Part shown: positions 3,580 to 56,700 of the stretch, in pieces
Numbering within the stretch: position 1 is the stretch's first letter
Layout: every line of letters starts with the position of its first letter
Source: Colletotrichum lupini
Lineage: Eukaryota > Ascomycota > Sordariomycetes > Glomerellales > Glomerellaceae
Direction of reading: 5' to 3'
NCBI RefSeq assembly: GCF_023278565.1
Contig: NC_064682.1
Span: 62,001 to 126,000, forward strand
DNA length: 64,000 nucleotides
Notes under the pieces: model-generated
The model's database searches: none
What the model was told of the DNA's origin: nothing
Seen by the model: only the letters and a program-made list of their open reading frames with translations
Translations under genes and position numbers: made by a program

Positions 3580-4574
3580 TTATTTCGGAGTATCCACCAT
3601 GATCTGACGCTGTTTTGCCCATTCAACGATGCGATCATACTTGGGACACCTATGCTGGGAGTTGAAGTCTGGCTGAATACCCCGAGAGCCATTTATGTGT
3701 AAGAACGGGGTTACATCAGCCGAGCACTGCAGTCGTACACGTAATGCCTCGATACAATGATCAACATGCTGTAGAAGAAGTCAACTTCGGAAGCAAACCA
3801 GCAAATCAGTCCAGTCAAGTCACTCAATGCAAAGTTTTGGACTTGGGGAGCGCTTACGGCAAGCACAAGATCCTCTCCACCGTGGAAGGCCGGATCGTCG
3901 CTATAATCGAATTCGGATCTGTGCACAAACTGACGTACGAGATTCAAGCAATGAAGGTTGTGGAAAACCTCGAGGCCAGCCAAAAGATAGCCTGGCTTTG
4001 TGCGTGCCCAGGAGTCACCGCTGGTACCATGTGATGTCTTGTTCAATGCTGGTAAATATTCATCCGATAAGTCGAATGATCCATCTAATACCAATCTGGA
4101 TCAGTAGGCCATTTTGAAATAAACTAGGGGCCGTTCGTGCGACTTACAATACCACAGATCCTTCCATTTTGCTTCCAACTCTGGAGTCGGCCTTCCTTTA
4201 TAAGGGCTGGTCTTCCAGAATGCATTGTCAAACTGCACATCTTCGTATTCCAAAATATCTTGAACGGGTGCTGTGTATCTCATGAGTCTGGGGCTCTACC
4301 AATCGTATTAAAGAGGTGCGATGCTGGACTCACACAAAACATGAAGCTTTCTGACGCACTGCAAATCCGATGGCTCTGCTGGGTTGAGGTGGAACCAAGT
4401 CGAGAGCCCAAGAAGTACACAGCTTATCCAAAAGAAAGGAAAAGAAAAGGTTTCGAATGAAGTTTTGCATTTTTTAGCGGGCAGTTGCATGTTATCGTCA
4501 TCCAAGAAAAATGCTTCTTCTTCTGCTTGGAGGTCTCGTTCGTGGCGAGACTGTCCTGTCTTACTGAACATCAT
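3580..4574 (-). CDS. UstYa family (DUF3328) oxidase-like protein
   Basis: There are four exons: 4336-4574, 4148-4287, 3858-4084 and 3580-3768. All three introns have GT-AG ends and compatible phases, giving 264 residues, a usual size for the family. A cytoplasmic acidic N-terminus is followed by one transmembrane segment (about residues 43-62). After it comes the family pattern: a TAPVQDILEYEDVQF block, then TSPYKGRPTPELEAKWKDLW, and the two hallmark HxxHC motifs, HNLHC at residues 168-172 and HVDHC at 203-207 (HVDHCIEALR). UstYa-type proteins act in dikaritin RiPP pathways such as ustiloxin, phomopsin and asperipin, where they oxidatively cyclise or modify core peptides cut from Kex2-processed repeat precursors. 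The gene is divergent from such a precursor at 5651, which strongly supports that role. The start is the first of two adjacent ATGs; an ATG 17 codons upstream (4625) is possible but less likely. No break is seen. Confidence 0.9.
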
Positions 4575-5650: not shown

Positions 5651-5914
5651 ATGAGAATTTTCAACGTTCTGCTCCTCGGAGGAGCCTCTTTGATTGTTGC
5701 TGCCCCTACCGGTGTTATGAACGAAGAGACACGCGAAGCCAGCATTTCTTTCCTCGAGTCTACGCATTACAAGAAATCCCCTAACGCTGCTGCAGAGCCG
5801 GCACCTGCTATTGAGTTCCTTGACTCTGTTCACTACAAGAGGACCCCCGAAGCCGAGGCTGCAGCCGAACCTATAACTGTCGGATTGGAAGTCCAATTCG
5901 ACCGCGGCATATAG
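5651..5914 (+). pseudogene. Kex2-processed repeat (dikaritin-type RiPP) precursor, 5' part, truncated by copia insertion
   Basis: The open frame is 87 codons, of which 5651-5877 are native. The last 12 codons are read into the LTR and stop there. The protein starts with a clear signal peptide (MRIFNVLLLGGASLIVAAP). Two repeat units follow: FLESTHY then KK, and FLDSVHY then KR. They are separated by Pro/Ala/Glu spacers ending in AAEP. Repeated short cores followed by dibasic sites behind a signal peptide are typical of fungal Kex2-processed precursors, including dikaritin RiPPs. The divergent UstYa gene at 3580-4574 fits that pathway. A copia element enters between the second and third unit, and the rest of the gene lies at 12768-12915. 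The frame is continuous across the break: 227 plus 148 bases make 125 codons including the stop. An alternative reading is a pheromone-like or other secreted repeat peptide. The chemical product is unknown. Confidence 0.85.
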
Positions 5915-6079
5915 CCGACTGCGCAGGGGCCAATTAGGGGCCCTATTTACGATTATCGTAGCCAGCCTAACCTACGGTTAGAACCTCCTTTTTATACCTA
6001 CGCAGATATTTATATAGTTCAATTAATCTCTTTATTAACTACGGTTCGAACTAACTACCCTATAATAGGGATATTAATA
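5878..6079 (+). repeat. 5' LTR of copia copy 1
   Basis: This 202-base LTR starts TGTCGGATTGG and ends TTAATA (RIP form of CTAACA). Its first 100 bases keep GC-rich sequence that is mutated in the 3' LTR. The precursor's reading frame ends inside it. Confidence 0.9.
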
Positions 6080-9000
6080 CTAATTAGTAATTAAATTCTA
6101 TTATTATAGATCGGTAAGGTATCTTGTTACGTAAAAGAGACGACCTTTTAATACCGTACGGGATAAGAGATTTATACTAATTAACCTTACGGAAGTAGAC
6201 GAAAAAGGGGGCGATTCTTAAATGCCGCACGGAATTAAGTAATCGTAGCCCTTTACTACTTACGAGAGGTCGACGTTTACTACGTTAAACTACGTTAATT
6301 AACGGAACCGCTTAAGTAACTAGTTTTTTACCGTCGCTTTAAGTAGCCTTTTTACTAAATAACTTTTCTACGGCCGGCCCGCGATTAGAAATTAACTAGC
6401 TAAATCGGTAAAAGGAATTCCCCGTACGACGACTACTTACCTAATTAACTAGCGTAACGAACGGGCTTAATAATATAATATAAAAAAGCACTACGCGATC
6501 GAAAAAGGGGATCTCTAAACGTAGATATTCTTATTTAGTAATAAAAGTAACCCTATAGGAGTTATTAAGCTAAGAGATCTACGGTATATAGAAAAGTTTA
6601 TTATTACGGGGATTTTATAAGTACGCCCTTAAGCCCGCGATCTAAACGACCTCCTTATAGCTCCCTTAACTACCCCCCGGGTATTACTTAGGAATATAAT
6701 ATAAGGGACGGTTTAACGAGGGAGGAGGGGATTTAGGGGTCCTAATAGTATCGAGTTAAGAGTATTACGGATCTCGGAGATTAACTTAAAAAGAAGGTAG
6801 CTACCCTAAAGTGGTCCTACGACCTCTTATTAAAGTTATTATTAGCTTAAAAAAAGGCTAAAAAAACGAGGATCTAAGGGAAAAGAAAAGAATCCTTTAG
6901 AGGGCTACTAAAGGGCTTCTTTTTATACTAGCTTACGGCATAAGATTACTAATTTTGAAAAATCGGTAATTAGTAAAGATCCCGAGACTAATTACTATAT
7001 CTTACTATAGTAATATAAACGTCTACCGCTACTATTATTAAAAGGAACTACTAGAACTTACCCTTTTATACTAAATAAAAAAGAGGATCTTAGTAAGTAC
7101 GATAGCTAGCGATCTAGAAAGGTAGTAGTAATTACTAAAAATAGTAAAAACGAGAGTAGTAGCGAGATAGTAAGAGGAAGTGGGAATCTCCTAGATCCCG
7201 ATAAATTCGTTAAGTAGTAAAAGTACGGATTTATTATAACTAGCGCGCGGATTAAATATATCCTTATTAAAATTAAATACGCTAGCGACTGCTAATACGG
7301 GTATAAGCTAGAGTACGACCCTTAGCGAGTTAGGGTAAAAAAGAAAAGGACGAAACCCAATCCTAGATAGAATTCTAATCCTTTATAAGTAGGTAAATAT
7401 TAACCTAGATTATTAGGGGACGTAAATATATAGAATTGCGGATTAGCCTAATGGTAAGTAAATTAACGTAGTATTAATCTATTTAACTAAGGTCTACGAG
7501 AAAAAGGGGCTATAGGGGCAACCCCTATTCTATAAGATCGCAGACGACCTTAGCTATTAGCTAGATAAATAGTTCGTAAGCGTAAGCCTAAGAATTATAA
7601 AAGCGGTTAATAGATTCCTCTATAGGCGAGGGGTACTACTAGCGTAATTATAATCGCGAGAACCTTACGAAATCCTAGTAGCGACGATTATAGAGGAGGA
7701 ATTCGTAATATGGACCTAGGTATAAGTTAATAGGGCGTATAATCGCTTTAACGAATTTAGAAAAAGGGTAAACGACTTAGATTTCTTTTTTATAATTACT
7801 AACGGTAATCTATCGTCGCAAAAGGATATATAGAGGCAAAATATAATACTAAAAGTACGATAATCGATAATTCTGCCTATTTCGATCTATAGCTCGTCGC
7901 CGTTACTAATACGAAATTCGGTACTAATTAGTTAGTAAGAAAGGAGGCAGACTACCCGAAGTTACTAATAGTACGTAGCGACGCAAGGATCGTATATAGA
8001 TACTAAAAATCTAGTAATAAATACGAGGTAGTTCATAGACCTTAAAAAGATCTTCCCGAAAGAGAAATTGTACTCTGGGGGGAAGTATAAGGTCTTATAA
8101 GAAACCCTAACGATGTTTTACGATTATTACGAAAAAGTCGGAATTAGGGAATACTAATACTATTCGGTAGTTAATATCGTACTCGTAAGTAAAGCCTCTA
8201 ATTACTATTATAAAGCGGTACGTAATTTCGATCGAAACGACTTTCTTAGTATAATTAACGCAATCCGAAGCCGCTTTAAGACCTATAATAAGAACCTAGA
8301 GCTCCTATCTAAGCTACGAGCGATTTTTTTTATATCTATAGCTAGGATAATAGAGGGCAAATTGCGAGTAAAAATCCTCGAAGAGCTTATCGATCGAATT
8401 AATAAGCTAGCGAAAACCTAGCTAAATAAGGGGACTAACGAGTAAAAAGTCGGATATCTTTATACCGCAGTCTAGCGCGTTCTAGAGGCGAAAATAACTC
8501 TATACTAAGCACTTAAAGACTACGAGACGCTCTACTCAAGGCTAAGATCTAACTTTAATATTAAAGTAAGAATGCCGCGCTAAACCTACCTCTAGGCATA
8601 CGACGGCCCTTATTAATAGCATTAGGTCGACCGAACGTATAATAAGAAAGGAAAAGAAGCTAGGTACGGCAATTATTAGTAAGGAATCCTAGATTTATTA
8701 AATAGGTAGAGATTTAACTTGCGAGTAGGGTAACGGAAAAAGTAATGTTTTATTTATAAAAAAGATAGATATTAGTTAAGTAACTACTCTAAAGAAGAGC
8801 GTGCTAAATCGTACGAATAATATAAAAAATCGAGAGTAGTAGATAGCAAAACTAGCCCTTATCGATTTAACTAATTCCTTATTATATATAAGGGCAGATC
8901 CGGGGGCACGGAACCTAGCGAAAGTAGCTAATTTAGTAGCCTAAAGCACCCGTACCCTATAGGAGATTCGGAAGATAAGGAAGATCTTACCCCCTATACC

Positions 9001-12000
9001 GACGAATTAAATTATAACGAAGTCGACGATATTAACTACTCTTTCTTCGCCCCGTTAGCCTCGGGAAGATATATGAGGCTAAACGAATAAAAGGTAGTAG
9101 AAGCCCTTAATAAGTAGGCTTTTATTTACGGATAGTAAGGGAAGGTCCCTTAGACGACGGATATAGAGGGGCAGCTAGAAGGGTCCTTTTTATACTACCT
9201 AGATTACTCGAATACTAAGCTCGTATAAGCATTCTATACGAACGAAAGGTACGGCCTAGACAATTTCTATAGGATTATCCTAGATACTAGGGTATTATAA
9301 TAGTTAATAGGAGGAAAAGGGCAATTCTAAGCGCTATAGAAAATCGCGCTAGTAACGCTTAATACGTTAATAGTAGGTATTACGAGGATTAGCTTCGGCC
9401 TAGGCGAGGAAATCGTCGCCCTGGGTATAGTAAAAGTAGAGACGTACTTCGGAACGATAACTTTTTATATCCTACCCGTTAATACCCTATTTCTCTTATA
9501 TTTAAAAGATATAGATCGACTAGGTATTATATTCGATAATACGAGGAATAGAATCTCTAACTATAAGCACTTCGAAATAGTCGAATAATAATAGGGGTAC
9601 GCGTTTATAAGGCTTACTAACGATACGAAGTTAATTAATTACTTAACGGAAAGTGAGCTTAGACGACTATACCGGAGATTTAGCTACCCGTTAGTCGCGA
9701 GGCTATATAACTTCTTAAAGTATTTAGGTAATAATAATATCGAAATAGGGGCGCTAAAGTAGTTAACGAAAGTATATTACTAATATTAAATAAATGCGCA
9801 GAGCCCACGCAGATTTAAATTTAAATTACGTAATGAGCTTAACTTTAATTAGGAGATCGTCGTCGATATTTTCTACTTAAATAGTCGACCGGTCCTATAT
9901 ATAATCGACGAGGCTATATTATTCTAAGTAGGGTAATTCCTATAGGATCTATAAGTAAAAATAGTATGGGTAGCTTTATAAAAAAGCTAGATCGATATAT
10001 ACTAGGGACCGCTAAATAGTATTAGAACTAACGCTAGTACTAGTTTTAAGTTAGTAGAATTTAAGGAAAATGCGACGGCCTACGGTATATAGTTAAAAGT
10101 CGTGCCCGTTAAAGCGTATTATAGTATTAGAAAGGTAGAAAGGGCGCACTAGTAGTTAAAAAGAGCGTTTAAAATTATTAAAAAGGAAAATCCCGATTCT
10201 AATAACGACGAATGCCTCTAGATAGTATTTAAATACTATAACGATACTATAGGGCCTAACGGGCTTATACCGACGCTTTTAGTATTTAGAGTATATTTAA
10301 GAACGACCTTAGCCTCGCTACCGTTACTAAATATAAGCTAGCGAGCTTAAGTAGTTAAAAAAGTAATACGGGCACTGCGCAAGGTAAGTATAAGAAAGTA
10401 AGTTAATAAGGTAATTACTACGCGCAATAGGCCCGATATAGGGGTTAATTTAAATATACCCCTAAATTCGGATATATAAGTATAATACGAAATTACTTAA
10501 TAATAGGCTAGGCTATATAAATTAATTTCTATCGACGAGCGTTCTTACGTAGTTACGAGAGATTGCGACTAGCCACTCGAGGTATTAATTACGGTAGTTA
10601 GACTATATTATATAGATCCTATCGAGGTGATTTCTAGCCTATAAAAAGAAGAAGAGCTAGGGGAAGCTATATAACCCGCAGTAGAGGCATAGGAAATCAT
10701 CCTTAACGAAATCGTCGTAGTAGTACTAATAGATAACGAGGAAGAGGAAATTACCGAAAGGGTACTAATACGTCGCGGGAGACTATAATAGTAAGCACTA
10801 ACGCGGCAATTTATTACTAGCGACGAGGTAATTAATACCTTTTATATAGTAAAAGAGAAAGCCGATTTCGAGCTAGTAGTTAAACTACGTAAGGAAGGCG
10901 TAATTATAACTACTAAAAAGCTATATAAGGGATTAGATCTTATCGAAGTAGATACTCTGCGCGATCGAGGGGTCTATCGATTTATCCTCTACGATTTAGA
11001 AAAGTATATAAACCTCTATATATTTAAATTACGAATAGTTCGTAAAATTAAAGAAAAAGGAACACCCTAACCGTACGAGAAGTCTAGATACGTAATTTAG
11101 GGGTACGGCGACGTTAAAAAGGCGACGCTACTTATATAATTACCTACTATATAGCGCTATAGCTAACGATTAATAATAGTACTAATAGTATTACTACGGA
11201 AGAAGGGATACGAGATTTAGAGCCGTAATATTACCTAGGCATATACCCAATCGGCCACAGGGCTTATAAGGAAAATCCTGGCCTATCTACCGAAGGAAAT
11301 AGCTAGTAAGTACTTAAAAAGTACGATTATTAAAGTGCTTAAGCTACTATATAGGCTCGCAGAATTAGGTACCTATTAGTAGGCTACTTACTACGATTTT
11401 TATATTAATTAATTATTAATAGTTACCTCTACGTACGACTCGTGCTTACTAATCGTAGAGTACGAAGGTGACTAATTTAGGATCGTCGGAATATAGACCG
11501 ACGATATATTAGGCCTATCCGATATTAACTTTATAAAGAAGGAGAATAAGGAGCTTTAAAAAGCGGGCTTCGTAGCGAAGCTAAAAGAGGTCCTTATAAT
11601 AAACACCCCCCTAGTATTTAATAGCGGGATTTTTATAATTAAAAGGGAAACCGTCGTCTTTTAGTAAAAGGGGTAGGGTAAGAAGATTAACCTCGTCGAC
11701 CCGAACGTAACCGATATTAAAAAGCGATATAAGGCTAAGCTTGCGCGAGGGGTATATATTATAAGTATTTATTAACTTAAAGTAACTTTTAACTACGCTA
11801 GGGTAGCGCAGGCTATAGATCTAACTAAATAAGACGTCGAAGTACTTAATAAGCGGCTTAAGTAGTAATAAACGAATCTCGATCGAGGTCTCGTTTATTA
11901 CCCAATCGACCTTACGATTAGTAAGCTCTACGTTTTTATTAATAGGTTATTTACGAATAATAACGACCTTACTTCGTAATTAGGGTATATTATTATCCTA

Positions 12001-12012
12001 GCTAACGAGAGT

Positions 12013-12300
12013 ATGGGCGAGAGCGAATTTACTATATATAGTAATATAATCTATTACTCGTTAACTAAAAGTAAGCGGGTAACGAGAAGTATACTAGCGT
12101 CGGAGGTTTATAATATAGTTAACGGCGTTAACCTCTCCTACGCGATTTTAATAACGCTAAGGAAGATTACCGATCGAATTAGCCTTCTACTTATTCTAAC
12201 AGTTATTTATACCGATTCTTACTCGCTATACGAATGCCTCGTTAAATTAAGAACGACGAAGGAAAAGAGGCTTATAATCGATATTATAGCCCTTAGGTAA
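12013..12300 (+). pseudogene. RNase H domain remnant of copia copy 1
   Basis: This 95-codon window of the polyprotein is still open. Segments such as TKSKRVTRSILASEVY and YTDSYSLYECLVKL match the RNase H region of fungal Ty1/copia polyproteins. It is not an independent gene, because stops lie on both sides. Confidence 0.8.
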
Positions 12301-12560
12301 TCGTACGAAAGGCGCGAGATACTTAAGATCCGTTAGATTAATAATAAAAATAACCTCGTAGACGCTTTTATAAAAGTAGTACTAAATAAGGGATTAGAGT
12401 AATTCGTAAGTAGTAGAAAAGTTATCGTACGAATAGAGGGATAGGTTATATAAAAAGAATAGAGAAAAGGGGGAAAAAGAGACGACTTAGTAAACGGGCC
12501 CGAGGTCGAATTATACCTCTAACCGCAGCGGTTAAATCGATAAAAAAAAGAGAAAGTTAG

Positions 12561-12762
12561 TATCGGATTAGAAGTCTAATTCGACCGCGGTATATAGCTA
12601 ATTACGTAGGGGCTAATTAGGGGCCTTATTTACGATTATCGTAGCTAGCCTAACCTATAGTTAGAACCTCCTTTTTATACCTACGCAGATATTCATATAG
12701 TTTAATTAATCTCTTCGTTAACTACGGTTCGAACTAACTACCCTGTAATAGGGATACTAATA
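12561..12762 (+). repeat. 3' LTR of copia copy 1
   Basis: This 202-base LTR starts TATCGG (RIP form of TGTCGG) and ends CTAATA. It is preceded by an A/G-rich polypurine-like tract (about 12542-12556) and followed by the target duplication GTAAC at 12763-12767. Confidence 0.9.
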
Positions 12763-12767
12763 GTAAC

Positions 12768-12915
12768 CAAACCTTTAGAGTCTGTCCACTACAAGCGCTC
12801 TCCCAAGGCGGACGCCGAGCCATCAATTTCATTCCTCGAATCAGTCCATTACAAGAAGCAGGCTGAGCCTGCAGCTGAGCCTGCGATCGAATTTTTGGAA
12901 TCTGTCCACTACTAA
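12768..12915 (+). pseudogene. Kex2-processed repeat precursor, 3' part, separated by copia insertion
   Basis: This fragment directly follows the second target duplication. It encodes three more repeat units: PLESVHY then KR, FLESVHY then KK, and a final FLESVHY immediately followed by the TAA stop at 12913-12915. The spacers are again Ala/Glu/Pro-rich (ADAEPS, AEPAAEP). Its frame continues that of the 5' fragment ending at 5877, so the insertion is the only lesion visible in the coding sequence. It has no start codon or promoter of its own, so it is presumably silent here. Confidence 0.85.
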
Positions 12916-14834: not shown

Positions 14835-15275
14835 TCAAGGCAAGTTCTGGGGAGCGTAGCTTTGGTCAGGGTTTACCGCCTGGCCGTTCACCAGCTGCTT
14901 GTCGGTGTAGGCGGGCCAAACAATAAGCTTCTGGTCCGTGACAGAGAAGGTTGTGAATCCCGCATCCGGACCGAACTGTCCGCTCCAGCCCGATGTAACA
15001 GAGAAAGCTCCACATTTGGCGTTTGAGGCAGCGCGGCTTGCAGGTGCGCCGGTAGTTATGAATTTGCAGGCTGTGGGATCTGCGATGTGGGTGTTGATGT
15101 TGAAGCTATAGTCGCAAGAGGTATCCTCAGCATTGCAGGTGCGGGTAAAACCTTCAATGGTCCATTCCGCGACACCCGCGGCCATCATTGACTTAACCTC
15201 ACGCTTCGAAACGGGTGAGCCGGAGACGGCAGAGGCAGCAGTCAGGGCTGTGAGGAAGAGGTGGGTGATCTGCAT
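14835..15275 (-). CDS. Small secreted protein, effector-like
   Basis: This is a single exon of 146 residues. The ATG at 15275 is used; the open frame extends further upstream but without an ATG. A signal peptide (MQITHLFLTALTAASAVSG) is followed by a dibasic KR at residues 24-25. The mature part has four cysteines (in RTCNAEDTSC, TACKF and AKCGAF), which would allow two disulphides. The block WTIEGFTRTCNAEDTSCDY resembles a family of small secreted proteins in plant-associated ascomycetes whose biochemical role I do not know. A TATA-like site lies about 140 bases upstream. It stands alone between transposon blocks, a common setting for effector candidates, but an effector role is inference only. 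Confidence 0.82.
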   Translation of the reverse strand: MQITHLFLTALTAASAVSGSPVSKREVKSMMAAGVAEWTIEGFTRTCNAEDTSCDYSFNINTHIADPTACKFITTGAPASRAASNAKCGAFSVTSGWSGQFGPDAGFTTFSVTDQKLIVWPAYTDKQLVNGQAVNPDQSYAPQNLP

Positions 15276-24821: not shown

Positions 24822-26502
24822 TTAAAAGACTGCGATCTCAACACCTCGAGCCTTAGCAGCTTCTTCTATGTCAAATGTATCAGTTCCCTCCCTAGATGCT
24901 TCTTCAAGGACCTCGTCAACTATATTTATGAGCCGAAATGAGTCTTTCCTCAAGAACGATGGCCGCACATCGTCGAAAACCTGCTTCCACTCTGGATGAG
25001 CATTTAGGATGGGGACTTCGAGGCTGCCTATCACTAAAGGATACATGAGCCCGTTGTGAACCAGAAGGTGGTGGTTGGCGGGCATTTCAACTGCCCTGTA
25101 TAGTGCGTAAACCGATGCCGCCAAACGACACATGACGACTTCTCTTGACGGGAATGATGTCAGGTCACCTGAGTGAGGTCCCGGCCGGTTCTCATCATCG
25201 GACGATGCCAACTTTCTTCTGGATCGGTATAATCGCCTCACATGTAAGACCGCTGTATACCGCCAGCAGTCCCAAAGCATGCATTGGGCATGCTCACCAA
25301 TCTCTCCCGGCCAAGTCCAGAGCTGGGATTCTATGTCACTCGCGCTGCTCTCCCTCATATCAGCGAGAATATCTAGTAGCGATCTGGGCAGTCCCGATAC
25401 GGTCTCTACCCCACCGAGCCTACCGCCTTTCCAAGAATCTTGGACTTTTCGTAGGTGGCGCCAAACATTCATGCTCGGTGTTATTCGACCAATCACCATG
25501 ATATCCATGTCCATGATAGACAAGACTTCGATGGAGTGCCGGATGGTGAACTCATGGTCGGCTGAGGGCAGCAGATGACTCAAGTTCGTCTCTAGATGGT
25601 ACAGGCCGGCCATGAGCTGAAGATACATCGTCCAAGGGCGAGCTTGAAGCAGCTACATAATGGCTGTGAGTTAGTAATGGATATCAGATTCGAGACGTTT
25701 GTACGCGTGAGATATGGGTAGCCGATTCGCATACGGCGAAGCTATGCTTTTTCGAGACTTACACATAGACTACAGAGAAGCAGGCCAGCAGAGACAGTGG
25801 ATCCATCGAAGGAGTTGTGTCGGCTTTCTAATTCCGATCGGAAAGTTTGGAGCGCGTGATCGACGTATTCCATTGACGAGACTGAGAAACCGTCGTCTAG
25901 GTATGCTTGGATAGCACCACAGACGATAGCAAATGCTTGGCTTTTCTCTGCCATTGAGACAAAGTGAGATTTCATCCAACCAGAGCTCTCAGTGGTGTAG
26001 AGTCGGTGCATCCCCGCGTTGAGAACTTGCGACAGGGTCAGTACTCGAATACCTATACGTGACAGAGCCAAGCGGCGAATGACTTACATTTCTGGAAAAG
26101 CTGCCGTTTCGGGTCATTGGTGCCGCCGGGCGATGGTGCCAAATATGAGATTTCAGAGTGTGACCCCGGTGTATCTGATTTTTGAGCGGCCCCGGACAGC
26201 TTCGGTGTATCGGCCCCGGGAGATGCTGAGGATGATCCAGTGTGGTGTAGTGGATCTTCAGCGTTCGGCAGATAGCTATCAAAAGTAGTTGAGTTGGCGC
26301 TCGCTTTGTTCGCAGCAAGGTCAGGGATTGCGGCCCCAGCAAATCGACCCCGCGAGGCTATTCCGTTGGTCCACTTGAGTGTGGTGTTATAGCCCTCGCA
26401 CTGAATGCCACGCCTTTGGCATGCTCGGCAATCTGGACGCGTCTCGTCGCATTTCCGTTTCCGCCTCTTACAATTGGAGCATCCTCCCCTAGAGCGACCC
26501 AT
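24822..26502 (-). CDS. Zn2Cys6 transcription factor with fungal-specific regulatory domain
   Basis: There are three exons: 26088-26502, 25763-26052 and 24822-25652. Phases fit and give 511 residues. The DNA-binding cluster is at residues 8-35 with pattern CX2CX6CX6CX2CX6C (GGCSNCKRRKRKCDETRPDC), right at the N-terminus. A Ser/Pro-rich linker follows, then a long helical region (LLLCSLCLLQARPWTMYLQLMAGLYHL) typical of the Fungal_trans_2 class of Zn2Cys6 regulators. The second intron (25653-25762) has a good branch-like ACTAAC. The first intron is only 35 bases (26053-26087), unusually short, although its donor GTAAGT and acceptor TATAG are good. The gene is divergent from the MFS transporter at 27331 and is probably the local pathway regulator. 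Confidence 0.88.
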
Positions 26503-27330
26503 CGATAACCTACTGATGGCTGTCGAGTGAGGTCAGCGTAATCGTTATCTGTTCAAGCCTTGCAGTTGACTGCTCAGCGGAGTTCTCGAAATGGCCGACC
26601 TTGCCGACGATGAATGAAGAATTGAGATTTCAACTTCCCAAGAAAGGCAGACGGGGCCGCGAGCGCATATATATGCCGAATAGGGCATGGCTCAGACGCT
26701 CGATTCTGGGGTCCAAGCAATCATGTTGCAGCTTCATAAATGCGGGGGCGAGGCCGCTAAGACAAATAGAGTTCTCTGTTATCCATGCGGAATGCCCTCG
26801 GAAAGAAAGGGATGAGGGTCCAGCAGGGACTTGCCAGTACATGGCGTCAAGACCTCGTCAGACTTGCTGGTTAGTGTACACTCACAGGGACTGTAATCAA
26901 GTCCCCAGTCCTGTTATCACAACGATATTGGTCATTCTCGCCATGGTCTTCATCGTCTTCGATTACGACCGGGGCTCTCGAAGATTATCATCCTGATCTA
27001 AACGTGGTGCAGGTGCTTCAGTCTCCTATGACTGAAAAGGGTTAACCTGGGCGCGTGGCTTATCGTGGCACACACCAAAATCCCAGCTGTCACACAACTT
27101 CGAGTAGTATCCAGGCCGAAATAGAAGTCTCCTGAGAAGGTCAACTTACCTTCGTATTTTATATTAAATGCCCGTTGCCTGCTCGACTCATTGCTGTGTC
27201 TGCATCAAATGCGACAATATTCTAGGCTGGTTCCTAAACGCAACAGCACCTCACCACATCTAGCCCATAAGCCCACTATTGTTTGTGTCTCTTTCTGCTC
27301 TCGCCTCAACGCTGTGGTAGAGAGTTCCCG
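26503..27330. other. Divergent promoter region between regulator and MFS transporter
   Basis: This 0.83-kb gap lies between the start codons of the Zn2Cys6 gene and the transporter. A plus-strand frame at 26601-26996 and its minus-strand counterpart have no domain signature and are taken as chance. The shared promoter region would be the natural place for the regulator to bind, but I cannot point to a definite operator. Confidence 0.45.
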
Positions 27331-29332
27331 ATGGACGTCCCAGCAGTGACAATGGCTCAACATACACCCCTTCCTCCGGGAACAGTTCACTTGCTCAATT
27401 GTATGCCTCTTACTCGAAGTCTTTGAAGTCCTGTGCTGACGTCTGCGTTCTACCCCAGATGAGGACGCTACAGAGTCCCCAATATTTGTTCTATCCCCAA
27501 CTCCATCGTCAGACCCGAACGACCCACTGGTACGGATTCTGCTGTTTGCGATGCTCCGGTAATGACATCTTCTTACTCTTTGAATGCGTGAAATAGAACT
27601 GGAGCAAATGGAGAAAGTATCTTAACTACAGTCTTGCCATGGGCGTCACCGTGGCCGCTTTCACCAAGTACGTTAGAGCCACATCGGTTTTCCAATCCAT
27701 CTGTTGCCCTTCGCGGACCAACTCCCCGGCTGACGATTTGTTTGCTTTCCTCCATAGCCTCTCGATCCAAACCGTCTTCTGGCAACAGATGACCGTTGAT
27801 CTCGATGTGTCTATCAACCAACTCAGCAACGCGCAGTCCGCTCAGCTTGCAGGACTTGCCACAGGCTGCATTTTCTTCATTCCGTTCACAATCAAGTATG
27901 GTCGTCGCTTAACGTACTTAGTTTCCACAGCGATTCTTGCTGCAGCAGCGTGGTGGACATCTTCTATGCATTCATACGCAGAACTTATTGCCACAGCTGT
28001 AATCACGGGACTAGCTGGCGCTATAAACGAGACCGCGGTGCAAATGACTGTAATACTTATCAAAATCCCCTAGTCTTATCTCGCCTTTTCGCTAATGATT
28101 CTTTCCTGGCACAGATTGCCGATATTTTCTTCGTTCACCAGCGAGGTTCTGCCAACGGTCTCTATTTTACTGCCGTAATGGCAGGAAGCTTTTTGACGCC
28201 TTTGGCTGCCGGCTCCCAAGCCGTGACTCAGGGATGGCGCTGGTCATACTACGCCCTCTCTATCTCTCTGACAGTTCTCTTCTTCATGTTTGTTTTCTTG
28301 TATGAAGAGACCAAATATATTCCCATAAGCCTCGGCGAAAGCGACCTTACAGACGACAACTCACCGATTGGCGGGAATGATATGGCAAAAGTCAGAAGCC
28401 TTGATAAAGGCGGTCTGGAGCTGAACTACATGCGGTCCAATCCCGCTACGGATGTCCCACTGAATTCTTACCGCGAACGCATGCGATTATTGACACCAAC
28501 CTCGGAATCCTTACTGCGAGTTTTCATCTTGCCACTTCATGTCATTACTCTTCCACACGTCATGTTCACTGCTCTACAGTTTGCATCCGGTGTATGCTGG
28601 TTAGTACTGTTCATGTCGGTTGTATCCGTCGTCTTTTCTGCGCCCCCCTACAATTTCAATACTGCAGCAATCGGATATATGAACCTCGGACCTTTTGTTG
28701 GAAACATTTTCGGCAGTATTTACGGCGGACCTTTAGCAGACTGGACTGTTTTGCGCTTGGCTAAGAGGAATGGGGGCGTTTTCGAGCCGGAAATGCGACT
28801 GTATCCCTTATTTCTACCCGTGATCACGATGGCTGGTGGTATTGTCATGTTTGGAGTCACCGCGGATCGAGTAAGTCACCTTTGCGCCACATGTCTTCTT
28901 TTGCTCCATCGACTGGTTAAACTAACAGCTCTAGGGAATGCATTGGATCTTCCCTAGCATCGGCGGCGCACTATTCGCATTTGGCCTTGGTGCAAATGGA
29001 GACATCACCTTTACATTTGTTATTGATACTTATCGAGAGGTGAATGCATCAATATTCGATTCAATGACTTTGACTAACATATGGTTCCACAGCTGACTGC
29101 CGAAGCCTTTGTTGGTGTCGCATTTGTTCGTAATGCTGTCAGCGTAGATGTCCCTTCGGCGCTTGTGCCCTGGATGTCAAACATGGGCCTTACCAATATG
29201 TACATTCTGAGTGGGGTTATCTCTCTTCTCATCGGTCTTTTGTATGTTCCTATGATCATCTGGGGCAAGCGCATTCGCACCATTCTGGCTCCCCGATACT
29301 TGCGACTTGTGGAGAGGCGCATGCAGATTTAG
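27331..29332 (+). CDS. MFS transporter (DHA1-like)
   Basis: There are seven exons: 27331-27400, 27459-27529, 27597-27667, 27758-28049, 28115-28870, 28935-29039 and 29093-29332. All phases are consistent, giving 534 residues. The hydrophilic N-terminus ends in DPLNWSKWRKYLNYSLA, a hallmark at the start of transmembrane segment 1 in fungal drug:H+ antiporter-like MFS proteins. KYGRRLTYL after segment 2 is the MFS loop 2-3 motif. A long charged cytoplasmic loop (about residues 250-310) divides two blocks of about six membrane segments each. The C-terminal helix region ends in WGKRIRTILAPRYL. It should move a small organic molecule across the plasma membrane; the substrate cannot be read from sequence. 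It lies between the Zn2Cys6 regulator and the DUF3237 and amidase genes, which suggests uptake or export of an amide-type compound. An alternative ATG seven codons downstream (27352) is in frame. Confidence 0.88.
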
Positions 29333-29616
29333 TGTGCTGAGTACGTGTATCTTATTTTGCCAGCCTGACCAGAGGTTTGCTTGTATGTACGAACTTTGGC
29401 ACCACTCCCGAGTATGGCAAGAATTTAGATTCCGTCTTTCTAGTTTTTACAGAATACTTCTGCGTTTTAAATTGTTCAACTTGGCTGGGCTCGTCGTGGT
29501 TGACCTGGTGTCTCACTACATTTACACAAGCAGCTATGAGATAAGTCGAAGTCTTTGTTTGTTTGCTGGATACCTACATATAGTGGCCAGATCTACAATT
29601 CTGCACACTATCCAGG

Positions 29617-30262
29617 TCAAAGCTTTTCTGCCAGTACGCCAGGGAAGTTTGTGAGTCGATAGCAGTCGATGATAGGGCGCCCCTCAAACATGGTCATTAC
29701 CCCGAGTGCTACCACAGCGTTCATCCAGTCGTAAGGGCTTCCCCCTGGTGCTTCAAACCTAATGTGCGTGAAGTACTCAACGTCATCCTGACTGATTGAA
29801 GATCGAGGCGATTTGTCTGTTCGACCAGGGCCAGTGCGGAAAACACCCTGGGCGTTGACGAGGATGAAGACACCATCATCAGTCTGGAGAGTATACATGG
29901 CATGCAACCTTGAGAACGCCTAGAGAGCGGTAAGCCGTATGAACTTCCCTTCATGGGTGACTTGTTTGCACCGTGCTAACCTTGTCAGGCCTAATGCGCT
30001 CGGCCCAATCTGCACCACTTCTTTCCACAATCTTGCCCGTGATCCTAGGGCCTTTGACTGACCCGCTCAAGATAGGCAGAACAAGACGAGTGACGCCCGT
30101 GTTATCAACGTTTGCAATTTCGGACACGTTGGGGTCCATATCGCAGACGATACGATAGATGAAGTCCAGATGTGGCATGCGCATGGATGGCACAGCGACT
30201 CCACTTGGCGAGAAGGCGTTTCCGGGGGAGGGGGCATGATCGGAGCTTCTCGCGGGTGCCAT
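29617..30262 (-). CDS. DUF3237 family protein
   Basis: There are two exons, 29981-30262 and 29617-29919, with a 61-base intron in phase 0, giving 194 residues. The ATG at 30262 is the only true ATG before the conserved region. The family pattern is visible: PHLDFIYRIVCDM near residue 30, LVLPILSGSVKGPRITGKIV, then the conserved GADW and a TLQTDDGVFILVNAQGVF strand, followed by YFTHIRFEAPGG and YDWMN. DUF3237 proteins are small beta-barrel proteins of unresolved biochemical function, often encoded in catabolic and secondary-metabolite clusters. This one is divergent from the amidase (30862) and converges with the MFS gene. No signal peptide or membrane segment is seen, so it is probably cytosolic. 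Confidence 0.85.
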
Positions 30263-30861
30263 GACTAGGATGTAAGTTGAGCGCGGGTCGACCTGCCGAA
30301 TGTATCCTGGATCGAAGTAAGTAGATGGAGAATCGAACTGTGAATGGCTTTTGGTATTGGCACGACGTGCTGAGACATGTGCCGAATGCTCGAGGCGGAG
30401 TTTTAAATAGTTATTCACAATCAATGTATTCGCAGGCTGATAAGAGGGGGTTTGTTACGCAATTGTTGCAGAGTCGAAAGAGCTGTCACCCATCCATCTC
30501 CCGAGCGCAGATGCCGACTCCTCAGAATTATAAGCCTAAGTACGCATCAGTCTTTCGACTCCCGGCAGCCGACGGCATCGGCAACTCTGCCAGCCAAGAT
30601 CTGGCGGCATCTCCTTCCCCATTGGGCCATTGGACGCGCCAACAAGCCGCCCGGGATGCGTGCCATCGTCCGCAATTCCGGCGACGTTTCTAGCATCAAG
30701 GTGCATTGGGGTTGAAAAGAAGACAACACAGTCCAGTTTTCTCCTCTGTCTCTTGCCCTCGGTCTACTCGACTATCGCATCCAAATCTAAACAATAGCGC
30801 ATGCAACCTATGAAACCTCTTTCTTCCACGATACCTTCTGAACCTATAAGGCGTAGTATCA
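30263..30861. other. Divergent promoter region between DUF3237 gene and amidase
   Basis: This 0.6-kb gap lies between two divergent start codons. Overlapping short frames (30325-30729) show no domain. It presumably holds both promoters. Confidence 0.45.
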
Positions 30862-32815
30862 ATGCCCGCGGTAATGGAATGGGAAGCGATTGCTTCTCGT
30901 CACCGGTTGGAGCAACAGCGGAACATACCTCAGGAATGGAGAATCTCTGATGATCAGCTAGCCAAGCTTCGAGGCAAGGGAACTGCCGAAGAAGGTCGAC
31001 TAATAGCCCAAGATGTTGCTCGGAAATCAGCGTTGATGACGGGAAAGGAACTCGACATCACAGAGTGCTACAACGCGCGAGAGTTGCTCGACAAGATTCA
31101 TCACAAGAAACTCACATCGGAAGAAGTGGCAGTGGCGTTTTGCAAGCGCGCTGCTCTCGCTCAACAGCTTGTAAGGACATTTCCATCTCGCTCCGTCACC
31201 GTAGGTTGTGGCTGAGCTCCCGAACGCCGAATCACATGTACTGACATCTTCTAGACTTCTTGCTTAACTGAAATATTCTTCGATGAAGGAATCAAGAGGG
31301 CTCGAGAACTTGACCAGCACCTAGAGCGTACTGGAGAGCTCGTAGGGCCACTGCACGGCCTACCAATTAGCCTCAAGGTATCCCCATCCGGAAAACTTGT
31401 CCGCCTGTTTGGCCTGTAGAACTGATGAATTTAGGATTCTTTCGTCGTTAGAGGTCATTACGCTACTGTCGGTTATGTCGAGTTTTTGAAAAGGCCACTG
31501 CCTACTTCTAACTCGGCGATGGTCGATCTCCTAGTGGACGCTGGAGCCGTCCTATTCTGTAAAACGAACGTTCCGCAGACCATGATGGTTCGTGACCTGC
31601 TGATCTGTATCGATCAAAAGTTTTGGTCGAGTGTATATTGACGAGATTTAAATAGACTGCCGACTCGGAGAACAACATTTTCGGTCGAACTTTGAATCCG
31701 CACAAGACGATTCTTACCGCCGGCGGTTCAACCGGTGGTGAGGGAGCTCTTGTAGCATTCAGAGGCTCAGTATTAGGCGTTGGCTCCGATATTGCAGGAT
31801 CAATCCGGATCCCCTCACTTTGTTGCGGCATTTATGGCTTCAAGCCCACAGCGGATCGAACGCCGTTTGGAGGGCAAGCTAACTATCCCTTCCGCAAACT
31901 CCAGCTTCCTGGAGTCACCCCTGTCGCTGGGCCGATGGCAAATTCAGTTGATGATCTCAGTTTGTTCATGGAAACAGTGATCGGTCGTCGGCCTTGGCAT
32001 TATGACGCATCTGCAGTCAACGCCCCCTGGAGAAGCTCCTATGGAAGCAACAAGACCCTGACCATCGGTATCCTTCCCGAAGATCCGGAATATCCCTTGC
32101 AGCCGCCTGTTCGACGAGCGCTTCAAGACGCAGTCTCAAAATTGACTGGTGCAGGGCACAGTATCGTCAAATTACCAGCAAACCCCGCTTGCAGTGCCAG
32201 TGTTGGTGGAAAGCTGGGATTCCATTACTTCGGGCTAGGATCTTCCGGTCTGGATGCCCTGGCGAGTGAGATTGGTGAACCACTGGTACATTCAGTGAAA
32301 CGAGGCGTTCATCCTTTCACAACTTCAAAGCCTCTTATTTCAACGGAGCTGGACACAGTACACCAACTGGATGAATTTCTTGGCTTACAGGCTTCTTATG
32401 CCAACAGCTGGAAGAACATTTGGACCGAGTATCACCTCGATGTTGTCGTCGGCCCCGGAGCAATCAGCACCGCGGTCCCCCACGATACCTATAGCATCCC
32501 TGTCTACACCTTGATGTGGAATGTGTTAGACGTAAGCCAGTGCAATCACCTCTCTGCAGCCAACAATTCAACTAACTGTGGGGGGGCAGTATCCAGCAGG
32601 GATAATACCATATGGGGTATCCTCCAAGACGAGAGATCCCAACTACCAGAAAGCGGCCTCAAATTTTGAAGCGGACTGTAAGTACTGTGCGTTCTAATTC
32701 TGCTGTTCTTCTCGTGCCTAGTGCTAAACCGAACACAGATGATCCAGAAGCAACCGACGGCGCCCGTGTTCGCTTCAAGTCATTGCTCCTCGATTTTATG
32801 ATGAAGAGTGTTTAA
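30862..32815 (+). CDS. Amidase (amidase signature family), frameshifted near C-terminus
   Basis: There are six exons: 30862-31170, 31255-31377, 31435-31587, 31656-32531, 32590-32677 and 32739-32815, giving 541 residues as read. The Ser-cisSer-Lys triad is present: Lys144 in GLPISLKD, Ser220 in TAGGSTGGEGA and Ser244 in VGSDIAGSIRIPS. The spacing is the same as in known family members. It resembles fungal acetamidase-type enzymes that hydrolyse amides to acid and ammonia, probably in the cytosol. The donor after exon 3 (GTTCGT) is weak. In the last exon the frame shifts. After DPEATDG the reading continues as ARVRFKSLL and stops at 32813, while the next frame gives a typical amidase C-terminus (VIAPRFYDEECLNAMRII) ending at 32853. 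One base appears to be missing between about 32760 and 32778. The catalytic core is untouched, so partial activity is possible. Confidence 0.87.
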
Positions 32816-32920: not shown

Positions 32921-34537
32921 TCAAGTGCTTTTTGATGATCCAAGAGTTTCCTCGGCGGCAGTGTCACCACCACCACCGCAGCCAATACCATGGCGCTGAC
33001 GGAATTTTTCTAGCCATTCGGGATTATCTGCAACAGTCTGATTCCATTCGTCGTCGCAGTCGTAAATCACACGCCTCGACTCTTGTCTAAGCATTTCGTC
33101 TGTGATGTCGAACCCTTGAGAGAGGCGCTCCTTTACAAAATGCCTCAAATGTTGCTCCAGGATCTCTGTGAAAGCTTTTGACGTTGCTGCCCTGGATCTG
33201 AGGATTGATTCTGACAGTAAAGACGTCGCAGTATCTATTGCAGCGGTCTTCTTTCCATTTTCTTGTTGTGACTCAAGTGTACGAGACGATCTCTGAGCAA
33301 AATGGTCTCTGGTGCTCTGATTCGTGACTGAAAATGGGACAACACTCAGCGACTCTGAACCTATGAGGTAGGGAGGCAGGGCATGCACGACCTGCTGCGC
33401 AATTGTTGGACTGAATCCGTGTTCTCCCTTCCAGTCTTTTATCATTGCACCATGGCGAAAGTGGTTGGCGAGATGGTCAACGCGTTTGTTCCAAGTCATG
33501 AACTCCACGTCACAGAACCCGCATCGAGAAGAGATCCGCACAGCTTCAGCCTTCCATCCATCGAATCGAGGCATTATGTCTAGTTTGTGCATAACGCGGA
33601 GGTGTTGAACAAGATGATCTTTCCTTCCAAATGATCGTGCTTCCATCGGTCGGTCGTAGCATGCTTTATGGTTGTGACCATCAAGATATTCTTCTGACGG
33701 GTCTACCTCGCTGCAGTACGCACAATGAGGTCTGCCAGTCACTGTAGACATGACCGAACCTCCCCGCAGTGCGCAAATCCACGACTCCAGGTTAAGGTGC
33801 CTCGATTTCTCGTGCCGAGCCCAATCATACTTAGTCTTGAAGCTATCGCTGCAGAATGTGCATTTGAAGGGGCGATCGTCTTTCTTGGAAGCGGCGGCTG
33901 CGCGTTTCTTAGACACTCTTCCCCGCCTGGTGCGATCAAGTAAACTTGTTTCGTTCTGTCGACCTCTTGACGTGTCTGATGCTGCTGACCACACTGAGTT
34001 TGCCGACTGTATAGATGAACTGCTCTCGCCACTGCCCAAGCTGGCTTTGGATTCAGTGCGGGCATAATCAGCAACATTCGGTGTTCGACTGACGTCGAGG
34101 CGAGCAGTACTATTCTTCAGCGCGTCATGTATGGCAGTGATGGAGGTTGGTTCATCTTGCGGGGGAGACCTCCTCCACCGCTGCATAGGACTCAATTCCC
34201 CAACGCTTGTAGATACAGGAATTGGTACTGGATTGGCCTGCTTCTCGGAATGCACAAATCGATAACGACTCCGTCTTCTTGGGAGGCCTTTATTCGTGTT
34301 GAACACAGTTTGGCCAACAAGCTCATCATTGGAGGGGATCGGCCAGTTAATGTGGTTTGAACGTCGTAGCCGGAGACTGTAGAGACCACGAGATATCGCC
34401 AAGCGCATAATTCGGATCCACCGCCTCACTGCTTCCGTCATATATCTAGGATATCGGTGTCTCTTGGGGATCGCTATCAGCCGTGGAAAACATCGAAGGC
34501 CAAATCTGGCCAGAGGTGCCAGTCGGGAGGTTATCAT
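32921..34537 (-). CDS. C2H2 zinc-finger protein
   Basis: This is one long open frame of 538 residues. A classical finger lies at residues 226-247 (FKCTFCSDSFKTKYDWARHEKSRH: C226, C229, H242, H247), a divergent Cys/His block at 272-317 and a third finger-like unit at 339-359 (CGFCDVEFMTW...H...H). The N-terminal 220 residues are Ser/Arg-rich and disordered, and the C-terminus has a glycine run. It matches a class of fungal C2H2 proteins presumed to be nuclear DNA-binding regulators. The true 5' end is uncertain. Upstream and overlapping it in another frame (34446-34811) is a protein-like stretch that could be a first exon, so the first 60 residues or so of this reading may be wrong. It is tail-to-tail with the amidase, 105 bases apart. 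Confidence 0.75.
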   Translation of the reverse strand: MITSRLAPLARFGLRCFPRLIAIPKRHRYPRYMTEAVRRWIRIMRLAISRGLYSLRLRRSNHINWPIPSNDELVGQTVFNTNKGLPRRRSRYRFVHSEKQANPVPIPVSTSVGELSPMQRWRRSPPQDEPTSITAIHDALKNSTARLDVSRTPNVADYARTESKASLGSGESSSSIQSANSVWSAASDTSRGRQNETSLLDRTRRGRVSKKRAAAASKKDDRPFKCTFCSDSFKTKYDWARHEKSRHLNLESWICALRGGSVMSTVTGRPHCAYCSEVDPSEEYLDGHNHKACYDRPMEARSFGRKDHLVQHLRVMHKLDIMPRFDGWKAEAVRISSRCGFCDVEFMTWNKRVDHLANHFRHGAMIKDWKGEHGFSPTIAQQVVHALPPYLIGSESLSVVPFSVTNQSTRDHFAQRSSRTLESQQENGKKTAAIDTATSLLSESILRSRAATSKAFTEILEQHLRHFVKERLSQGFDITDEMLRQESRRVIYDCDDEWNQTVADNPEWLEKFRQRHGIGCGGGGDTAAEETLGSSKST

Positions 34538-35208
34538 CCAGCGGAGCGCATCCGGGGTCCAGGCCCGACCCTGCAGTCAGAAAGGGCGGCCCGAAAGTTC
34601 CGCCTGTCGCGGGTTGAGTTCTTGCGAGTCTGTCCAGCGCATTGGGCTGAGGGTGATTCAAGGTTACTTGCTCTGTGACAGCATTCATAGCTTGTGCGGA
34701 TATAAGGCCTCCCTGATATGTCAAAGCGACTTCACCGTCCTGGCCACCGGTGACTTGGGGCATGAGTCTGGGGTGAGTCCCATTGGGCGATGAGCGTGGG
34801 GAGTTCGGCATGCTATCGACATGGCATGACGTGCAAGGGGAGGAAAGATGGCATGCACAGTCATGTCAAAAATCCTCCATTTGCCCTGCTTACCTGAGTG
34901 AGAGCCTCTTACGCGTGAAGATTGATAAGCTCAAAATATATGGACTTCACGCCCTAGGGCGCCAAAAGTTACGGCTGGCACCTATGAAGAGACACGTGAC
35001 ACTCGCAGGTGGACACAGCGTGAACCTTGGCTTGATGTTTGAGTCAAGAGCCCCCTAATGTTCTGCTCAGTTGTTGAGTAACAATACTGGCTAGTATGAT
35101 ACTGGCCGTTGTGGAAGCCTCTTGATGACAAGTACTGGAATGTGTATCAGGGGCCAAAACCACAGGTGCGGTTTCTTCCAGTACCTGTGGCAAGAGTATT
35201 AAAACCTT
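34538..35208. other. 5' flank of the C2H2 gene, possible upstream exon
   Basis: The minus-strand frame 34446-34811 reads MPNSPRSSPNGTHPRLMPQV onward and looks like disordered protein sequence. It may be the real N-terminal exon of the zinc-finger gene. The rest shows no gene. The target duplication ACCTT of copia copy 3 is at 35204-35208. Confidence 0.4.
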
Positions 35209-35410
35209 TGTTAGTATCCCTATTACAGGGTAGTTAGTTCGAACCGTAGTTGACGAAGAGATTAATTAAACTATATGAATATCTGCGTAGGTATAAAAAG
35301 GAGGTTCTAACTGTAGGTTAGGCTAGCTACGATAATCGTAAATAGGGCCCCTAATTAGCCCCTGCGCAGTCGGCTATATACCGCGGTTAAATTAGACTTC
35401 TAATCCGATA
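35209..35410 (-). repeat. 3' LTR of copia copy 3
   Basis: This 202-base LTR starts TGTTAGTATCCC as written and ends CCGATA. It is nearly the same as the left LTR of copy 2. Confidence 0.88.
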
Positions 35411-53728: not shown

Positions 53729-56700
53729 CTAACTTTCTCTTTTTTTTATCGATTTAACTACTATAGTTAGAGGTATAATTCGACCTCGGGCCCGTTTACT
53801 AAGTCGTCTCTTTTTCCCCCTTTTTTTTACTCTTTTCGTATAACCTATCCCTCTATTTGTATAGTAACTTTTTTATTACTTACGAATTATTTTAATCCCT
53901 TATTTAGTACTACTTTTATAAAAGCGTTTGCGAGGTTATTTTTATTATTAATCTAACGGATCTTAAGTATTTTATACCTTTCGTACGATTACCTAAGGGC
54001 TATAATATCGATTATAAGCCTCTTTTCCTTCGTCGTTCCTAATTTAATAAAGTATTCGTATAGCGAGTAGGAATTTATATAAATAACCGTTAGAATAAGT
54101 AAAAAGCTAATTCGATTAGTAATTTTCCTTAGCGTTATTAAAATCGTATAAGAGCGGTTAACGCCGTTAACTATACTATAGACCTCTAATACTAATATAC
54201 TTCTCGTTACCCGCTTACTTTTAGTTAATAAATAATAAATTATATTACTATATATAGTAAATTCGCTCTCGCTTATACTCTCGTTAGCTAAGATAATAAT
54301 ATACCCTAATTATAAAATAAGGTCGTTATTATTCGTAAATAACCTATTAATAAAAACGTAGAGCTTATTAATTATAAGGTCGATCGGGTAATAAACGAGA
54401 CCTCGATCGAGATTCGTTTATTACTACTTAAGCCGCTTATTAAATACCTTAACGTCTCGTTTAGTAAGATTTATAACTTACGCTACCTTAGCGTAGTTAA
54501 AAATCGCTTCGGGCTAATAAATATTTATAATATATACCCCTCGTACGAGCTTAGCCTTATACCGCTTCTTAACATTAGTTATGTTTAGATTAACGAGGTT
54601 AATCTTCTCGCCCTACCCCTTTTATTAAAAAACGACGGTTTCCCTTTTAATTATAAAAATCCCGCTATTAAATACTAAGGGGGTATTTATTATAAGGACC
54701 TCTTTTAGCTTCGCTACGAAGCCCGCTTTCTAGAGCTCCTTATCCTCTTTTTTTATAAAATTAATATTAAATAGGCCTAATATATTATTAGTCTATATTC
54801 TAATAATCCTAAATTAGTTGCCTTCGTACTCCGTAACTAATAAGCACGGGTCGTACGTAGAGGTAACTATTAATAGTTAATTAATATAAAAATCGTAATA
54901 AGTAGCCTACTAATAAGTGCCCGATTCTGCGAGCCTATATAGTAGCTTAAGCACTTTAATAATCGTACCTTTTAGGTACTTACTAACTATTTCCTTCGGT
55001 AAATAGGCTAGGATTTTCCTTATAAGCCCTATAGCCGATTGGGTATAGGCCTAGGTAATATTACGGCTCTAAATCTCGTATCCCTTTTTCCGTAATAATA
55101 CTATTAGTATTATTATTAATCGTTAGCTATAGCGCTATATAATAAGCGATTATATAAGTAGCGTTGCCTTTTCGACGTTACTATACTCTTAAATTACGTA
55201 TCTAAACTTCTCGTACGGCTAGGGTGTTCCTTTCCCTTTAATCTTACGAACTATTCGTAATTTAAATATATAGAGGTTTATATATTTTTCTAGGTCGTAT
55301 AGGATAAATCGATAGACCCCTCGATCGCAAAGAGTATTTATTTTAATAAGATCTAATCTCTTATACGGTTCTCTAGTAATTATAATTACGCCTTTTTTAT
55401 ATAGTTTAACTACTAACTCGAAATCGGCTTTCTCTTTTATTATATAAAAGGTATTAATTACCTCGTCGCTAGTAATAAATTACCGCGTTAGGGCTTACCG
55501 TCGTAGTTTTCTACGACGTCTCGCCGGTAGTATTAATACCCTTTTAGCAATTTCCTCTTCCTTGTCGTCTATTAGTACTACTACGACGATTTTGTTAAGA
55601 ATAATTTCCTATACTTCTACCGCGGGTTATATAGTTTCCCCTAGCTCTTTTTCTTTTTATAAGTTAGAAATTACCTCGTTAGGATCTATATAGTACGGTT
55701 TAACTACCGTAATTAATACTTCGAGTAGCTAGTTACGATCTCTCGCGACTATATAAGAGCGCTCGTTAATAAAAATTAACTTATATAGCCTAGCCTACTA
55801 TTAAGTAATTTCGCACTATACTCGTACCTCCGAATTTAGTAATATATCTAGATTATCCCCTATATCGGGCCTATTGCGCGTAGTAATTACCTCGTTAACT
55901 TACTTTTTTATACTTACCTCGCGCAGTCCCTATATTACTTTTTTAATTACTTAGGCTCGTTAGCTTATACTTAGTAACGGTAGCGAGGCTAAGGTCGTTC
56001 TTAAATATGCTCTAAATACTAATAGCGTTAGTATAAGTCCGTTAGGCCCTATAGTATCGTTATAGTATTTAAGTACTATCTAGAGGCATTTGTCGTTAAT
56101 AAAATCCGGATTTTCCTTTTTAATAATTCTAAACGCCCTTTTTAATTACTAATATACCCTCTCTACCTTTTTAATACTATAGTACGCTTTAATAGGTACG
56201 ACTTTTAGCTATATACTATAGGCCGTCGTATTATCCCTAAATTTTACTAACTTAAAGCTAGTACTAGCGTTAGTTCTAATGCCGTCTAGCGGTCCTTAGT
56301 ATATATCGATCTAGCTTTTTCGTAGGGCTACCTATACTATCTTTACTTATAGATCCCAGAGGAATTACTTTACTTAAAAAGATATAGCTACGTCGATTAT
56401 ATATAGTACTAGCCGACTATTTAAATAGAAGATATTGACGACGATTTCCTAGTTAAAGTTAAGCTTATTACGCAATTTAAACTTGAATTTGCGTAGGCTC
56501 TGCGCATTTATTTAGTATTAGTAGCACACTTTCGTTAACTACTCTAGCGCCCCTATTTCGATATTATTATTACCTAATTACTTTAAGAGGTTATATAGCC
56601 TCGTAACTAACGGGTACCCAAATCTCTAATATAGTTTTCTAAGCTCACTTTCCGTTAAGTAATTAATCGACTTCGTATTATTAGTAAGCTTTATAAACGC

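Follow-up and report, generated by a model that had tools for sequence, protein, structure and literature searches.

The stretch of DNA analysed here, which comes from the lupin anthracnose fungus Colletotrichum lupini and is referred to as the window, is 64 kb long and corresponds to positions 62001 to 126000 of contig NC_064682.1; all coordinates below are window positions unless stated otherwise. It contains two native pieces of a putative Kex2-repeat peptide precursor gene, a long terminal repeat (LTR) retrotransposon lying between them, and an unbroken gene of the UstYa family in divergent orientation (Table 1). The genome comprises 63,443,975 bases in 12 contigs, of which the one carrying the window accounts for 4,657,399 bases. 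Locus tags of the CLUP02 series belong to C. lupini strain IMI 504893, and genome sizes from 54.5 to 63.4 Mb have been described for the species (PMC11645255). The precursor gene begins 67.65 kb into the contig, in a setting of small gene islands amid AT-rich DNA altered by repeat-induced point mutation (RIP).

Table 1. Features of the split precursor locus, in order of window position.
Feature	Position	Strand	Remarks
UstYa (DUF3328, PF11807) gene, unbroken	3580..4574	-	259 residues; divergent from precursor, 1.1 kb upstream
UstYa exons	4574-4334, 4270-4148, 4084-3858, 3768-3580	-	model supported by relatives
Region between precursor and UstYa start codons	4575..5650		1076 bp; divergent genes
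5' native piece: leader, cores 1 and 2	5651..5877	+	227 nt; matches C. fioriniae P0002
Remnant open frame, 87 residues	5651..5914	+	ends in 5' LTR at 5914; leader, 2 cores and both Kex2 sites kept
Core 1, FLESTHY-KK	5750-5776	+	5' piece
Core 2, FLDSVHY-KR	5816-5842	+	5' piece
Target-site duplication, left copy ATAAC	5873..5877	+
5' LTR, 202 bp	5878..6079	+	outer part little mutated, inner part mutated
Interior of element	6080..12560	+	dense RIP-type mutation; stops interrupt the frames
3' LTR, 202 bp	12561..12762	+	mutated, the outer part less than the inner
Target-site duplication, right copy GTAAC	12763..12767	+
3' native piece: cores 3, 4 and 5	12768..12915	+	148 nt; without own start or leader
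Core 3, PLESVHY-KR	12772-12798	+	3' piece
Core 4, FLESVHY-KK	12832-12858	+	3' piece
Core 5, FLESVHY, then stop	12892-12915	+	3' piece

Scanning the six frames of the window for the core pattern (any two residues, E or D, S, V or T, H, Y) yielded five matches, all on the plus strand and all inside the two native pieces. A KK or KR pair follows each of the first four cores, and a stop codon follows the fifth. The recurrence of a FLESVHY-like core followed by a dibasic site had been pointed out in an earlier sequence-only reading of this DNA and holds, except that core 3, the first in the 3' piece, is PLESVHY. Cys and Trp are absent from all five cores. The leader, whose N-terminus MRIFNVLLLGGASLIVAAP is hydrophobic as judged by eye, is a putative signal peptide for the endoplasmic reticulum. 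Reading both pieces revealed no internal stop and no frame lesion, in line with the earlier statement that no other damage is visible. That reading had also expected annotation to report only an 87-residue protein with an LTR-derived tail, missing three of the five cores; this remnant is real, and a protein identical to it is present in the protein database for this contig. Two genome searches for a second copy of the precursor in C. lupini returned two matches each, namely the two pieces, and the string LESVHY was absent from the literature searched.

An uninterrupted homologue exists in C. fioriniae. The protein CFIO01_12682 (P0002, 102 aa) shares the leader and contains four repeats, by our count one fewer than the two C. 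lupini pieces combined; one of its four cores is followed by Glu-Arg (ER) in place of KR. It matches the window from 5651 (E 4e-33) and at 12775-12912 (E 1e-21), in the same order and on the same strand. Because this continuous protein matches both pieces in order, they represent one gene split by one LTR element, as the sequence-only reading had proposed, and not fragments of two different genes. Protein searches gave two matches among 83 candidates with the 5' piece and three among 171 with P0002, C. lupini's own protein included in each case. A further relative (P0003, 65 aa, found on four contigs) keeps the leader but drops out of frame within the first repeat. Beyond that point it contains the stretch SLRITRN, which matches the 5' piece read in frame +1, and its C-terminal residues are similar to a frame-shifted translation of the 3' piece. 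P0003 represents either a frameshifted allele, which would be another loss independent of that in C. lupini, or an artefact of assembly.

The adjoining UstYa gene has three GT-AG introns of 63, 63 and 89 bases, and its 259-residue model holds both HxxHC motifs (HNLHC and HVDHC), which we take to be catalytic. The comparison with Pfam (E 6.2e-44) and the search for relatives were made with an earlier model that differs from the final one at a single junction, that of intron 1. Among 253 candidates, 17 proteins were found at E 1e-20 or better; they come from 14 named Colletotrichum species (C. lupini included) and Gaeumannomyces tritici, with two further proteins. Eight of the 17 were aligned, and six of these database models contain both motifs, while the first motif is missing from the C. 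scovillei model (P0004) and the HVDHC segment from the C. lupini model CLUP02_15924 (P0006). The latter model, with 453 aa and a long extra N-terminus, looks like a mis-spliced version of the unbroken gene. A search for solved structures with a C. acutatum relative as query gave no match.

A genome-wide search for PF11807 returned 32 rows, three of which are exons of this one gene (3607-4358, minus strand). Grouped by hand, the rows correspond to about 25 places in 63.4 Mb, so that by chance approximately 0.2% of genes would have a UstYa gene within 2 kb. The 1076-bp region between the two divergent start codons is presumed to be a shared promoter; TATTTAAA is located in it, about 80 bases ahead of the precursor ATG. 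A survey of 1461 strains found DUF3328 genes to be most frequent directly beside genes for Kex2-processed repeat precursors (KEPs), although only 22% of KEPs had a DUF3328 gene within 15 genes (PMC7329392).

The retrotransposon occupies positions 5878-12762, between cores 2 and 3. Since the DNA outside the LTR start differs across the 29 further LTR loci listed, this start is the boundary of the family. The flanking target-site duplications agree in four of five bases, the differing base standing in TpG/TpA context. The sequence-only reading had accounted for the interruption exactly by the LTRs and a 5-base duplication: the lengths bear this out, as 227 and 148 bases add up to 375, a multiple of three; the duplication itself is imperfect. 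That the gene is split in frame, as had been stated, carries no special meaning, as the native parts on either side of any insertion with clean duplicated ends together make up complete codons. The family is abundant, with 1436 and 1423 genome candidates for the two LTRs (about 40 scored each) and 765 for one internal piece (150 scored). With paired LTRs, a target duplication and dispersed copies, the element is an LTR retrotransposon. The name copia, given earlier, could not be confirmed: none of the 10 open pieces of the element that were tested gave a retroelement Pfam domain, none of 53 RVT_2 matches falls within it, and seven of its pieces gave no meaningful match to stretches beside RVT_2 in two other copies. 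Copia and Gypsy are described as the commonest elements of C. lupini (PMC11645255), and a disruption by a RIP-mutated LTR element near a chromosome end rich in transposable elements is ordinary for this species. Elsewhere in the window, a second family copy lies at approximately 53992-60371 on the minus strand, with a 5' LTR at 60167-60371 (L013) and a matching internal piece at 53992-54309, and a family 3' LTR occurs at 35211-35410 (L055).

Between 6001 and 12000, six 1-kb bins gave (CA+TG)/(AC+GT) values of 0.08-0.23 and TA/AT values of 1.54-1.85, in each bin beyond the limits of 0.75 and 1.15, respectively, given for RIP (PMC7882544). The two LTRs differ at 20 positions; all differences are transitions and 17 are in CpA/TpG (RIP) context, so dating the insertion by LTR divergence is unusable. 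In the 5' LTR, C and G are mostly retained in the outer part and mutated in the inner part, and the 3' LTR mostly mirrors this. We compared LTR sites over 58 loci (L004-L032 and L041-L069) ranked by similarity to either one or the other of the two LTRs of this element, of which L021 and L066 are the same place and one locus falls in neither class. At site 85, 18 of 32 5' LTRs but none of 25 3' LTRs were unmutated; at site 184 this held for none of the 32 and for 18 of the 25. Nearly every LTR of either class was unmutated at sites 41 and 65, most LTRs of each class were mutated at sites 133 and 142, and in the 3' LTRs site 1 was unreadable. RIP thus tends to spare the outer ends, with more C/G in the outer LTR parts of other family copies as well. 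The two LTRs of a freshly inserted element are identical at the start. Because mutation nevertheless depends on the element end, RIP acted on this element in place, after its insertion. PF00145 matches occur at three places in the genome; two of them are strong, with long open frames, and from their sizes we take these to be DIM-2 and RID. The element resembles other RIP-mutated LTR retrotransposons of Colletotrichum in being AT-rich, depleted in CpA and of high copy number, and differs from them in sitting inside the coding sequence of a peptide precursor. RIP traces had already been described for asexual Colletotrichum (PMC5576322).

The dibasic sites are followed by spacers of 8 or 10 residues built of X-Ala or X-Pro dipeptides, which is the STE13 signature (PMC6339444). 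With spacer borders that we picked once the pattern had been seen, Ala or Pro fills 18 of 18 second versus 4 of 18 first positions in C. lupini (p 8e-7), and 12 of 13 versus 3 of 13 in C. fioriniae (p 5e-4). From such spacers, mature peptides of about ten residues are predicted, likely ending in ESVHY or a variant, for example SISFLESVHY and AIEFLESVHY. Judging from this anatomy, the leader would take the precursor into the secretory pathway, Kex2 would cleave after KK or KR, a Kex1-type carboxypeptidase would trim the basic pair and a Ste13-type dipeptidyl peptidase would strip the spacer, freeing the peptides. The adjoining UstYa-type oxidase may then cross-link the core, most likely via the C-terminal Tyr, by analogy with ustiloxins, asperipin-2a and phomopsins (PMC7329392).

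With regard to a larger biosynthetic cluster, the open frames tested beside the precursor gave no Pfam match, the UstYa exons having come to light only in the PF11807 search, and no tyrosinase or further tailoring gene was recognised in its small island; as the introns of the neighbours were not modelled, genes were possibly missed. Farther left there are only asparaginase and methyltransferase genes, each in a separate island. A gene island at 26056-32666, 13-20 kb farther right than the 3' piece, has open frames for a Zn-cluster regulator, an MFS transporter, a DUF3237 protein and an amidase and is a possible small metabolic cluster; no link to the precursor was found. On the minus strand, a 146-residue open frame at 14835-15275, 1.9 kb past the 3' piece, appears secreted by eye and has no Pfam match, and a 551-residue open frame at 32924-34576 carries a Tc5-type transposase DNA-binding domain and a weak C2H2 zinc-finger match. 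Scans of the window with Rfam and for tRNA genes gave no matches.

We consider it well probable that the locus holds a KEP gene of the ust-RiPS type, belonging to the C. acutatum complex and paired with UstYa, that was split by one LTR retrotransposon. Assignment to this known kind is supported because a UstYa gene with both HxxHC motifs adjoins a precursor with five cores and four dibasic sites. The C. fioriniae match to both pieces, the phasing of the spacers, the surveyed frequency of DUF3328 genes beside KEP genes, and the LTRs with their duplication and mirrored RIP pattern also speak for this reading. The unbroken, divergent gene 1.1 kb upstream, absent from the sequence-only reading, is also the best support for the description given there, of a precursor like those of ribosomally synthesized and post-translationally modified peptides (RiPP-like). 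The leader, tandem cores between Kex2 sites, core Tyr and UstYa gene beside the precursor are shared with ustiloxin, asperipin-2a, phomopsin and Epichloe GigA (PMC7329392). The ustiloxin type differs, however, in its core (YVIP, and YXIX in the dikaritins of Colletotrichum, versus ESVHY here; PMC7329392); X-Ala/X-Pro spacers, a split precursor and the lack of a recognised tyrosinase or other tailoring gene nearby likewise set the C. lupini locus apart. Several observations weigh against the assignment. The precursor was found by name only in C. fioriniae, whereas UstYa relatives occur in 14 named Colletotrichum species, and no C. fioriniae protein is named among the 17; either small precursor genes are unannotated or the enzyme is independent of this precursor. 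The choice of spacer borders after the fact belongs here too, and the STE13 signature is described as limited, as a rule, to the alpha pheromones among Ascomycota (PMC6339444), a point in favour of a pheromone-like product. The precursor would then encode an unmodified secreted peptide, with UstYa merely a neighbour acting elsewhere. Leader, Kex2 repeats, STE13-type spacers and cores of about ten residues are indeed common to the alpha-type sexual pheromone precursors of Ascomycota (PMC6339444), precursor relatives were far fewer than UstYa relatives, and the open-frame tests recognised no other tailoring gene in the island; yet asperipin-2a likewise has just one DUF3328 gene (PMC7329392). The two start codons are only 1076 bp apart, almost all KEPs with a mating-factor or pheromone annotation are reported without a DUF3328 neighbour, and Tyr stands at the end of every core, the same residue that takes part in the cross-link of ustiloxins, phomopsins and asperipin-2a (PMC7329392). 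Those alpha pheromones of Sordariomycetes that have been described carry two Cys and a PCW end (PMC6339444), whereas the cores described here lack Cys and Trp. Core composition and the UstYa neighbour thus disfavour a pheromone, although the spacers speak for it, and we regard this explanation as improbable.

Under the preferred reading of a UstYa-paired precursor, the element landed between cores 2 and 3 in C. lupini and was RIP-mutated later in place. What is left is a remnant of 87 codons, still preceded by the upstream region of the gene and comprising leader and two cores, and a 3' piece that holds the other three cores but neither start nor leader; precursor output is expected to be reduced or abolished. 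The insertion may have shortened the gene rather than killed it, the LTR providing a stop and probably a poly(A) site so that the remnant still yields two cores and less peptide. The open frame does keep leader, cores and both Kex2 sites complete, the native pieces have neither stop nor frame lesion and UstYa is unbroken; an intact frame is equally expected, however, after a loss that is not very old. RIP-mutated elements are usually silenced and may silence their neighbours, which also speaks against a working remnant. On the other hand, one to 16 repeats have been reported for alpha pheromone precursors (PMC6339444), and C. fioriniae has four. A shortened but active gene therefore seems possible to us, if somewhat less than an even prospect. 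The alternative of an old, fixed loss, in which the element inserted before the clonal lineages of C. lupini arose and the two pieces are in decay, we place just short of evenly balanced. RIP is held to act just before meiosis and to need a sexual cycle (PMC7882544), and C. lupini is described as asexual (PMC11645255). Because RIP followed the insertion, the latter is probably older than the most recent sexual phase of the lineage, which weakens the earlier suggestion that the loss is recent or specific to this strain. Against great age, the native pieces still read cleanly, rare sex is not excluded in the description of the species (PMC11645255), and RIP across many asexual generations has been discussed as possible (PMC7882544).

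The disruption of this UstYa-linked Kex2-repeat precursor gene is real and cleanly preserved, and the peptide system is more interesting than the disruption. A broader idea, which we offer tentatively and think rather unlikely as a whole, is that UstYa and the ESVHY precursor constitute an old, uncharacterised cyclic-peptide system of Colletotrichum, with enzyme relatives reaching Gaeumannomyces. The precursor would have been lost repeatedly (the split in C. lupini, the frameshift in P0003) while the enzyme stayed unbroken, and the many-core design may let a two-core remnant work. The locus illustrates how annotation overlooks small repeat precursors and what is left of them after a split, and it provides a natural case of a broken precursor beside an intact enzyme gene. 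These results suggest that Colletotrichum, a major genus of plant pathogens, has a UstYa-linked peptide system.
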